NCBI GenBank assembly: GCA_951217055.1 | Contig: OX578276.1 | Span: 155,071,482-155,135,481, forward strand | From: Gerris lacustris | Lineage: Eukaryota > Arthropoda > Insecta > Hemiptera > Gerridae | Length of the DNA stretch: 64,000 nucleotides | Direction of reading: 5' to 3' | Part shown: piece by piece, positions 50,946 to 62,771 of the stretch | Position numbering within the stretch: the stretch's first letter is position 1 | Layout: the number at the start of each line of letters is the position of its first letter | Translations under genes and position numbers: made by a program | The notes under the pieces: generated by a model | Told to the model about the DNA's origin: nothing | What the model saw: only the letters and a program-made list of their open reading frames with translations | Databases searched by the model: none

Positions 50946-51159
50946 TTGATGATATATATTATGATGAGACTGATCACCCTTCCATCATACTTCCCATTGG
51001 AGATTAAGGAAGGAGTTGATGGAAGGAGAAGTTCTGCTGTTGGCCCATAAAAGCACTAAGTTGTTACAGTTTTGTGTTAGTGTTTCATGTTATGGTGAAT
51101 TAAAAGAAAGAGAGAGGGATATGTTTGTTTACACTGAGAGAAAAAAAGGACTTTTTTCG

Positions 51160-52060
51160 ACTTATACGCAGTCGAAATGATGCTGCGTGTAAATAAGGTT
51201 GAACGTAGGAGGTCTTCCAGTCGAAGTCTATACTGCGGCCATTATACTGTGACTCAGCTGAGTGTATATATCGAACATTTCGATATATCGATACTTTTTA
51301 TGCTGAAACTTAGTGTAACGCTATACTGCGAGGCAACCGAATAGAGTAGGTGAATGTGACACATTCACGTTCATTTTTGACTGTGTAGCAGTCGAATGGA
51401 GCAGTCGAAAGACATATTCACGTTCATTTTCAACTGTGACGCAGTCCAATGGTGCAGTCCAAGCGTCACGTTCACGTTCATTTTGAACTGTGAATCAGTC
51501 AAACAAGTAAATTTCTACCGCTATGCAGCGTAATATTTTATTTATTGTACCAGCCTACAGCAGTATTGTACTTCTAGTCAGTTGAATTTCAACTGCCTCC
51601 CTCAATTTTCTACCGCTATGCAGCGTAATATTTTATTTATTGTACCAGCCTACAGCAGTATTGTACTTCTAGTCAGTTGAATTTCAACTGCCTCCCTCAA
51701 TTTTCTACCGCTATGCAGCGTAATATTCTATTTATTATACCAGCCCACAGCAGTATTGTACTGCTAGTCAGTTTAATTGCAACTGTTATGCAGCGTAATA
51801 TATTATTTCTTATACTAGACCACAGTAGTATTGTACTGCTTGTCAGTTTAATTGCTACTGCTATGCAGCGTAATATATTATTTCTTATACTAGACCACAG
51901 TAGTATTGTACTGCTTGTCAGTTTAATTGCAACTGCTATGCAGCGTAATATATTACTTCTTACTATTACTTACTAGGCCACAGTAGTATTATACTTCTTG
52001 GCAGTTGTACTTCAACTGCTACACAGCAGTTGTGTCGACTGAAGTTTGGTTGGAAAGGGG
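51160..52060. repeat. CACTA left subterminal repeat region
   Basis: Exact ACTG-N5-CAGT palindromes at 51380-51392, 51433-51445 and 51487-51499, with one-mismatch forms at 51160 and 51246. Then tandem units beginning CTATGCAGCG at 51521, 51616, 51711, 51786, 51861 and 51936 (spacing 95, 95, 75, 75, 75), each containing an ACTG/CCGC-NNATG-CAGC variant and TTGAATTTCAA-type hairpins. The open frame 51677-51976 is a reading of these repeats. Confidence 0.85.
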
Positions 52061-53667
52061 AATACTTTCAGCTGCAGCCCAGATGAAATATAAGGTGGTA
52101 TGCTGTCGAGAGAGTAAGCTTTAGCTTCTGCTTAACTGCTCCAAATTTGGGAACACAACTGCTCCAAATTTGGGAACAGTAGAGCAGGCGTTACGCCAAT
52201 GCTTACCCCCGACTGCATACAACCTTTATTTTCATCTAAGCTGCTGCTGTATTATTAAAATATTACTTAATTCTTAAGTCCTAAAATTAGGACTTTAAAA
52301 ATAATTGTAATATTTTAAATTAGAAGAAAAACATGTAAGAGGCAGATTTGATTTTACATAAAAAATTTTATTATTATTATTTTTATGAATACAAATTTAC
52401 AATTATATATTACGTCCAACATAAGTATAAAATAAAATTTAATTAAAATCCAATATATATATATATATATATATGCATTCATGTAAGTTAAATAATAGAG
52501 GTATAAATTTCAAGTTAAAATATTCTTTATAAAGAAAAAGGAAAACATAGTTCATACATATTTTAGTTACAAATTTAAGGCACAATATTAAAAGTTAATG
52601 TATAAAATAAAATAATATTTAGGTGTATAATATACATATATATATATATATATATATATATATGTGTGTGTGTGTGTTTAAAAATGCATAATTATCACAC
52701 ACACACACACACACATATATATAATAAAGGTAAAATTAAAAGCATAATATTACAAGTTACTATTTTACTAAATTTAAAAAATTTAAGCTGTTTATGTGTG
52801 TAATATATATCATAAAATTTAATTTATATACAAATACTAATAATAATATGTATGTATATATATATATATGTATATGAACACATTTAATGCCTAGTATTAC
52901 AATTTAAAATATTCTTTATAAAGAAAACATAGTTTATACATATTTTAGTTACAAATTTAGGCACAATATTAAAAGTTAATGTATAAAATAATATTTAGGT
53001 GTATAATATACATATATATATATATATATATATATATATATATATATATATATATATATATATATATATATATATATATATGTGTGTGTGTGTGTGTGTG
53101 TGTGTGTTTAAAAATGTATAATTATCACACATCACACACACACACACACATATATATAATAAAGGTATAAATTAAAAGCATAATATTACAAGTTAATATT
53201 TTACTAAATTTAAAAAATTTAAGCTGTTTATGTGTGTAATATATATCATAAAATTTAATTTATATACAAATACTAATAATAATATGTATGTATATATATG
53301 TATATATATGTATATATATATATATATATATATATATATATAATTTAAAATATTCTTTATAAAGAAAACATAGTTCATACATATTTAATAGCTTTACAAA
53401 CATCTGTTGATTTTACTTTGTAATAGTCTTACAATAATTAACATATTTATCATTTGTGGTGCAAAATTATATTTTTATTCATTCTAATAATTGAATAGTT
53501 TGATCACAATTACTATTCATTGTAATTCTTGTGACCTTATCTTTTCTTATTTAAAGATAAAAATATTATTCATAACCATTTTGTTAATTTTGTTATACAT
53601 TTGAAATATTAGGTTACATTGCTCTTAATAATTATGTACACTAAGAAGACACTTAATGTATCAATTA
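52061..53667. other. CACTA 3' non-coding part with (TA)n/(TG)n tracts
   Basis: Two long direct copies (about 52530-52870 and 52905-53300) contain TTTAGTTACAAATTTA, (TA)n, (TG)n, (CA)n and TAATAAAGGTA blocks, indicating a local duplication of about 370 bp. A minus-strand AATAAA at 53479-53474 could end the transposase transcript. Confidence 0.6.
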
Positions 53668-61500: not shown

Positions 61501-62399
61501 TCATTAACAGAGTTATGCACATTGTTCCGAACGACAAAATAAACCACGTGTAGGATTGATTTTTCAATACCTATATACTATAATCATGTTTTTATACGCA
61601 AATACAAATCTATTCTCTTTTATTCTATTTCATAGCTAGAACGTAGGGGAGAATCGTTTATTTAGGTGGATACTACAGTTTTCACACAGTCTATATTAAC
61701 TTAGTTCTTATAGACGATGAAGATTATCATGTGTATATACTTTCTAAGTTTAAATATAGTCTCTAATGCTCACTTATAATCAATAATAATATTGTCAATA
61801 GTTATTTTTGCTGTCTGACAATATTCTCTTCAAACTTTAGCAGTTCCAAAATTTATTTGTAATTTTTTGGATGGTCTAAAAGATTAGTAAGCTTCATAAC
61901 GGCCCAAGAGGGGTTGACGCATACTTTCTATATATACAAAATTACTTCCCAAATACTATGCCAGTTCCAGTGTTCAATTCAGGTAAATTTTAACCTTACT
62001 GAGGGTTTGAATAACCGTTAAAATTTATCTTTCATAAGCATAAGTATAATGGTTTTTTCTGATTCTCCTAAAAAGGTCTAATCCTCTTAAGTCAAAGGGT
62101 ATTTTTTTAAACTTTTAATACCTATATAACCTCTGAATCGTAACGGTTCTTATACACATTACTATTCAAGTAAAGAAAAATAAAACCAATAAACACACCA
62201 TATAGATTAGATTAGGTTACCCAAGAAAAAATCTGTACTAAATAAATGTACCCCTAAAACACTGTTAAATTATTTCAAAACTACCTCCAGAACATTTATA
62301 TATATGTAATAATAATAATAATATGTAACGTACCGTAGTTAACTATTTGTTTTATTAACTATTTCATTAAAAATAGTAATAAATGTACTTATGAGGTAT

Positions 62400-62740
62400 G
62401 CTGAATTCCAGTTGAAACTAAATATTTTCAACTGCCTTTATGCTTTATTAATTAATTTTTTCGGCTGCCACGATTCTGGAAACAACAATACTGCGACCGA
62501 GCCGAGTCAAACTATACTGCATTGCAGTATAGGGGTGTTTTAAACTGCGAAACAGTTTAGTGGTTATGCTGCACAGGAGTTGAATGATATGTTCGACTTG
62601 ACTCCAGTATACCATCAACTGCTACGCAGTCTGAAAACGTCTATGCTGGGTCGCAGAATAGGCCTATACTGCACCTCAGTATGGGAATGAATTTTTTCGA
62701 CTAGTACGCGGTTGAAAAATGGTGGCAGAATAAGTTATAC
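62400..62740. repeat. CACTA right subterminal repeats, outer cluster
   Basis: Exact ACTG-N5-CAGT at 62516-62528, 62544-62556, 62618-62630 and 62668-62680, with one-mismatch forms at 62596. The same interrupted palindrome as on the left side. Confidence 0.85.
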
Positions 62741-62771
62741 TGACTATTTAGCATAATTTTCTCTCCGTGTA

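Follow-up and report, generated by a model that had tools for sequence, protein, structure and literature searches.

The window analysed here, a 64,000-nucleotide stretch of Gerris lacustris contig OX578276.1 (assembly GCA_951217055.1), contains at 51132-62769 a transposon of around 11.6 kb. A first-pass annotation, made from the letters of the window, had proposed a complete CACTA-type element with both genes open, and its coordinates proved exact; lengths and exon arithmetic were likewise all reproduced. The element is bounded by the 13-bp terminal inverted repeats (TIRs) that had been described, starting CACTG at the left and CACGG at the right, with 12 of 13 positions agreeing when the right end is inverted, and within the window the pattern CAC[TG]GAGAGAAAA is confined to these two ends. 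Two genes are read leftwards (Table 1). The transposase open reading frame (ORF) has no internal stop, as claimed, and both of the suggested C2H2 patterns are found in it (C4, C7, H20, H25 and C38, C43, H56, H61). The partner gene is also as proposed, with six exons, introns that are all GT-AG and a sum of 1818 nt, or 605 codons plus a stop.

Table 1. Features of the element and its boundaries, in window coordinates.
Feature	Position	Strand	Basis or detail
Left target duplication copy, TA	51130..51131	none	Sequence read
Left TIR, CACTGAGAGAAAA	51132..51144	+	13 bp, first base 51132
Left subterminal region	51156..52030	none	Spaced palindromes (TTCGACT-N7-AGTCGAA type) and tandem repeats
Transposase, 827 aa, no intron	53668..56151	-	ATG at 56151, stop 53670-53668
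Predicted C-terminal BAH-like domain, residues 690-820	53692..54084	-	Structural prediction only
Predicted RAG1/Transib-like catalytic core, residues ~118-691	54079..55800	-	Predicted fold and motif order
Two C2H2 zinc fingers, residues 4-25 and 38-61	55969..56142	-	Pattern and relatives' profile
Intercistronic gap, 34 nt, partner stop to transposase ATG, within one exon	56152..56185	-	
Partner exon 6, with stop	56186..56697	-	Predicted exon
Partner exon 5	56910..57078	-	Predicted exon
Partner exon 4	57234..57430	-	Predicted exon
Partner exon 3	57757..58480	-	Predicted exon
Partner exon 2	59587..59735	-	Predicted exon
Partner exon 1, with ATG	60721..60787	-	Predicted exon
TATA-like box, TATATAA	60963..60969	-	182 bp upstream of partner ATG
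Promoter-proximal palindrome cluster	60999..61117	none	Two exact RACTG-N5-CAGTY sites
Host-type dispersed repeat fragment	61287..61499	none	Repeat searches
Right subterminal palindromes	62399..62713	none	Pattern scan
Right TIR, CACGGAGAGAAAA	62757..62769	-	Reverse complement of right end, last base 62769
Right target duplication copy, TA	62770..62771	none	Sequence read

Other copies with the same ends, on which the case for a live element had been made to depend, are readily found in the 937-Mb, 69-contig assembly. A 269-bp left-end query gave 104 candidates and a 300-bp right-end query 101; the 40 scored from each were 100% identical, over the full length in the case of the left end. Patterns of 52 bp (left) and 80 bp (right), each allowing up to three mismatches, occurred at 100 and 101 places respectively, and all 100 left places and all 100 listed right places had zero mismatches, while reversed control patterns of both ends were found at no place in the genome. 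Pairing the 100 listed left with the 100 listed right ends within 40 kb produced 97 pairs: 84 measure 11,550-11,750 bp, two are slightly shorter (11,530 and 11,549 bp), one is of 9,145 bp and ten range from 11,852 to 27,605 bp. The ten long pairs may contain insertions nested within the element or may join unrelated ends by chance; in the 12,022-bp pair of copy L043, 376 extra bases lie within a microsatellite region. Copies are spread over 10 contigs (C1-C9 and C11). Contig C1, which makes up 17% of the assembly, carries 29 of the 100 left ends, with close neighbours near 131.7, 134.7 and 154.8-155.1 Mb, a clustering attributable to either local hopping or local duplication.

Boundaries were read in 60 copies, namely 20 that were aligned in full and a further 40 paired copies represented by 75-base ends. 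An exact 2-bp duplication was seen at 56 of these (TA 41, CA 6, TG 6, TT 2, AA 1) and a 3-bp duplication at none of the 60. The TA flanks reported for the window copy are thus genuine but do not amount to a strict rule, the family making 2-bp duplications of which 41 of 56 are TA. For empty sites we used old repeats within the window whose sequence matches that on either side of an inserted copy. They show the same boundaries, closing with one duplication removed for L045 (AA), L025 (TA), L029 (CA; three sites aligned) and L013 (TA). Of the four, L025 and L029 are the cleanest, since L013 shows three mismatches adjoining the joint, and the right flank of L045 tracks its empty site for only ten or so bases before agreeing with it anew from base 50. 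The same evidence bears on the idea that segmental or tandem duplication, or copying during assembly, and not transposition, produced the copies. Copies L041 and L043 do have 250 bp of right flank in common, as the left ends at C1:131,734,890 and 131,741,486 have an upstream flank, but the spread over 10 contigs, the individual 2-bp duplications, the matching empty sites and the differing flanks of the 60 examined copies (L041/L043 apart) make it extremely improbable, and we reject it for those copies whose target duplications were read.

The age of the family was assessed by aligning the window copy with 19 full copies, microsatellites being masked, so that around 10.4 kb were compared per copy. 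The 29 variable columns comprise 13 substitutions and 16 indel columns (four indels), and every variant is private to one copy. This star-like pattern implies that the 20 copies stem from practically one sequence within a short time. Mean pairwise divergence is 0.0125%, with 45 of 190 pairs free of substitutions. The transposase is open in all 20 copies, amino-acid changes being limited to L029 (two) and L031 (one), and the partner is intact in 18. At a substitution rate of 3e-9 per site and generation, the divergence of 6.3e-5 per site and copy places the burst about 20,000 generations ago, and somewhat later should assembly errors account for part of the variation. TA-type microsatellites at window 52.45-53.35 and 59.78-60.04 kb seem to be the source of most length variation (L009-L046) and could act as a fast clock for the burst.

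We consider it very probable that this is an intact, recently amplified, autonomous two-gene CACTA-type cut-and-paste transposon of the CMC clade, present in about 100 copies that are nearly all full length. The 100 or so near-identical copies imply very recent movement and, with both genes intact in 18 of 20 copies, support the proposed live system better than a single open copy would. The element marks an ongoing or just-finished genome invasion, and on the sequence evidence we lean, with some reserve, towards its still moving at the present day.

A number of observations weigh against this interpretation. Three left and three listed right ends are unpaired; the unpaired left end on C11 may belong to the one right end outside the listed 100, and after one lone left end, L047, the element continues for no more than 3,074 bp. 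Four of the 60 boundaries have no exact duplication. In L011 the target GA is duplicated but the site reads GA-TC-[element]-GA, with two extra palindromic bases at the left compared with the lone GA of the empty paralog; L069 reads TG/TA, L085 TA/TG (reaching N after 11 bases) and L115 TG/CA, which could reflect exchange between copies, misjoins or end processing. The partner has frameshifting indels in L017 and L043. At the protein level, the tnp2-like character assigned to the transposase corresponds to a weak Transposase_21 match (19.3 bits against a cut-off of 28.6, E 7e-4), and the Pfam finger model (zf-C2H2) reaches 16.2 bits against 25.2, although a profile of transposase relatives matches solved finger proteins with E-values down to 9e-11. 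Searches with the whole partner protein, and with a two-row profile of the partner and the first 452 residues of its relative P0072, each gave no homolog at E<=1e-3 among 7,987 scored candidates. Finally, a crude scan picked up no strong splice acceptor shortly upstream of the transposase ATG, the nearest being at 56250.

Identity among copies also speaks for recent, not present, movement. The burst could have amplified within the last 20,000 or so generations and since been fully repressed, for instance by PIWI-interacting RNAs, leaving copies intact but immobile. This alternative differs from the interpretation above in present activity only, and we rate it as possible, if less than even: the case for activity is drawn entirely from DNA sequence and the 13 private substitutions over 20 x ~10.4 kb leave time since insertion, but the substitution-free pairs and the 18 of 20 copies with both genes open tell against it.

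Returning to the transposase of the autonomous element, residues D305, D400, E647, C420/C423 (C2C) and H623/H627 (H3H) are invariant across 48 aligned sequences, and D305, D400 and E647 are proposed, from motif order, as the DDE triad. Structural modelling predicts a RAG1-like fold for the core and a BAH fold for the C-terminal tail. The BAH sequence profile in Pfam has no match on the window transposase at E up to 1, and is absent among the 25 families shown of the 50 matched by 48 relatives. These relatives include 12 with Transposase_21 matches at E<=1 and four matching the Plavaka Pfam model (best E 0.0014). The transposase matched no PDB sequence at E<=1, and a search of a viral structure library had no match at E<=1e-3.

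If these models are right, the enzyme could be a live RAG1-type cutter outside the RAG/Transib line with its own chromatin reader, the BAH-like domain reading a histone mark and directing or licensing cutting, which would make it a single-chain counterpart of the arrangement of RAG1 plus the RAG2 PHD. We put this forward tentatively, as a possibility with less than even odds. The transposase may also make hairpins in flanking DNA, on the basis of the single copy L011, whose two-base palindromic addition is what off-centre opening and rejoining of such a hairpin should leave. The element allows both RAG-like hairpin cutting and BAH-type steering of insertion to be tested.

The partner and transposase appear in tandem elsewhere. 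Another family, also from this genome and represented by L131 and L133 (pieces of a single place, about 600 bases apart), has a recognizable partner C-terminus (tblastn E 1.4e-7), whose stop lies 25 nt ahead of the transposase ATG. P0072, a Brenthis ino gene model, has a partner relative fused to a transposase (BLASTP E 1e-6 over 104 residues), and in P0094 from Aphis craccivora the last stretch of the partner is, judged by eye, apparently fused to one. As it recurs in these three cases, the tandem is, on sequence comparison, conserved, and the enzyme is probably produced from it, via reinitiation or alternative splicing. Among Pfam families none matches the partner above its cut-off, a SAM profile gives no hit on it, and its N-terminus matches nothing in PDB sequences or Pfam; P0072 itself has a SAM_1 match of 19.3 bits (cut-off 23), and a different part of P0072 aligns to the partner.

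Potential binding sites for the proteins of the element are conspicuous. The element holds 12 occurrences of ACTG-N5-CAGT, and the remaining 52 kb of the window none. When near-perfect palindromes (7-bp arms, ACT core) are sorted by spacer, 7 nt is commonest, with six in the element and one outside, while each other spacer gives 0-2 in the element; TTCGACT-N7-AGTCGAA and CTATACT-N7-AGTATAG are both fully paired (7/7). Single weak matches mean little, because the broader pattern with two mismatches occurs 96 times in the window where shuffled sequence already gives 64.7 +/- 7.7. The left subterminal region includes five tandem copies (111-nt register, spacing 95/95/75/75) from 51512. The palindromes cluster at both ends, with a third cluster just upstream of the TATA-like box, which by analogy with maize Spm, where TnpA binds subterminal repeats, suggests that one protein may both pair the element ends and control the promoter. 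A second TATA-like sequence, TATATAT, is at 60852.

By this scheme, a TATA promoter at 60.97 kb would drive a single leftward transcript, which when spliced would encode the partner; reinitiation or alternative splicing would yield the transposase from the ORF that comes second in the last exon. The zinc fingers, the partner or both might bind ACTG-N5-CAGT near the ends and in the promoter, by analogy with TnpA, bringing the two ends together and modulating transcription. The RAG1-like DDE core would then cut at CAC...GTG and insert with a 2-bp, TA-preferring duplication, while the BAH-like tail may use chromatin to guide the enzyme or hold it in check. The many near-identical two-gene copies, most of them full length, are ready material for testing the role of each protein and translation of the second ORF, and the element could become a gene-transfer tool for animals.

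Assignment to the CACTA type is supported by the ends, the order of catalytic motifs and the weak Transposase_21 match. Maize Spm/En has terminal CACT, subterminal repeats, a tnp2-type DDE transposase, a second protein, introns and a 3-bp duplication. The present element lacks the last of these and shares the others, the tnp2 relationship being indicated by a Transposase_21 match below its cut-off; its CACT(A/G)...GTG termini are exact in all listed copies and its subterminal repeats lie near both ends. Its duplication is 2-bp and TA-biased instead of the 3 bp of plant and fungal EnSpm, and it differs from the maize type further in having the partner gene upstream, with the transposase ORF following in the last exon, and in a partner without a Pfam family above cut-off. 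As in the CMC(T) clade, defined in PMC12730594 by C(2)C and H(3-4)H between the second D and the E, the motifs run D, D, E with both intervening pairs present. The same paper describes ESTA, fungal EnSpm-like transposons with TA duplications, some families of which carry TET/JBP genes; compared by description, our element resembles ESTA in TA duplications, the two motifs and a RAG1-like transposase, but its duplication is not strictly TA and its second protein is another.

Among animal elements, SmTRC1 (PMC1636069) is 4.5 kb long with CCC termini, 54-bp TIRs and many truncated copies, has a 2-bp target duplication in 7 of 14 copies, established via empty paralogous sites, and has two tandem ORFs in one transcript clone. 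The likeness extends to the 2-bp duplication with empty sites, the apparent relation to Transposase_21 and the tandem ORFs; the 11.6-kb length, CAC termini, 13-bp TIR and mostly full-length copies set the present element apart. Spongebob in Hydra has no readable transposase owing to stops and frameshifts (PMC4298943), so that both comparison elements are smaller or decayed. RAG, Transib and ProtoRAG have target duplications longer than 2 bp and ends with a nonamer. From these the element differs in its 2-bp duplication, its 13-bp TIR without nonamer, a BAH-like tail predicted in place of the RAG2 PHD reader and a transposase only ~11% identical to theirs. Judged by titles and abstract openings, the open papers surveyed described no active or recent insect CACTA like this one and no BAH domain within a transposase. 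The kind is known. It is unusual that near-identical 11.6-kb copies are so many and so intact, that the tandem ORFs are conserved, and that a BAH-like tail is predicted on a RAG1-like core.

The transposase has 598 matches, all insects among the 120 listed, within which the best-scoring is 43% identical over 96% and the highest identity is 48% over 58%. A conserved-motif pattern with one mismatch occurs at 130 genome places, the 100 listed comprising 79 with the letters of the element and 21 other sequences; a motif pattern with an alanine codon gave no match. Four 2-kb pieces from the other sequences are 33-41% identical to the transposase, the best (L131/L133) being 41% over 458 residues. 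The end-pattern and motif searches revealed no intermediate copies between the element and other families, and no diverged copies with its ends were found within three mismatches in 52 or 80 bp. Pfam PF02992 had no match over the whole genome, but 14 control genomes were equally silent, so the result is uninformative.

The isolation of the family, with its nearest sampled same-genome transposase 41% identical and no closer protein than those above among the 120 listed, could be explained by horizontal transfer out of a distant host and a subsequent burst, an origin that would be compatible with a live autonomous transposon. The segment 61150-62380 points the other way. It resembles window places 28551, 19765, 11283 and 18554 at 74-83% identity, as a 1,231-base query it gave 4,700 first-look genome candidates against 104 for the 269-base left end, and it is 100% identical at all 40 scored places. 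Because the element carries this piece of an abundant host-type repeat, its recent history is, as far as sequence can tell, in the host genome or a kindred one. Pattern-seeded scans, moreover, revealed no relatives in viral contigs or in prokaryotic genome contigs, and we regard transfer from a distant host as rather doubtful.

Further CACTA-type families with long open transposases lie at C1:33.51, C1:47.33, C1:73.45 and C7:6.97 Mb (L129-L133). Identical 32-base motifs from such families account for 11, 7 and 2 of the 100 listed motif places, with one variant, which suggests that some of them are young too. At C3:70.97 Mb (L069/L070) a copy without target duplication stands at a GTAAAA-like splice donor, directly after a stretch that, read by eye (..CLAIAMVYAAET), resembles the first part of an exon for a secreted protein; it may have hit a host gene. 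In the window itself, a tandem 62-bp repeat (50800-50951; two identical copies and a partial third) adjoins the insertion site on the left. A BEL/Pao-type long terminal repeat retrotransposon at 29529-37284 has 300-nt stretches (29529-29828 and 36985-37284) that are 99% alike and Peptidase_A17, DUF1759, DUF5641 and integrase zinc-binding domains in split frames; inside it, at 31471-32103, is a reverse-strand piece resembling a long interspersed nuclear element (RNase H, zf-RVT).
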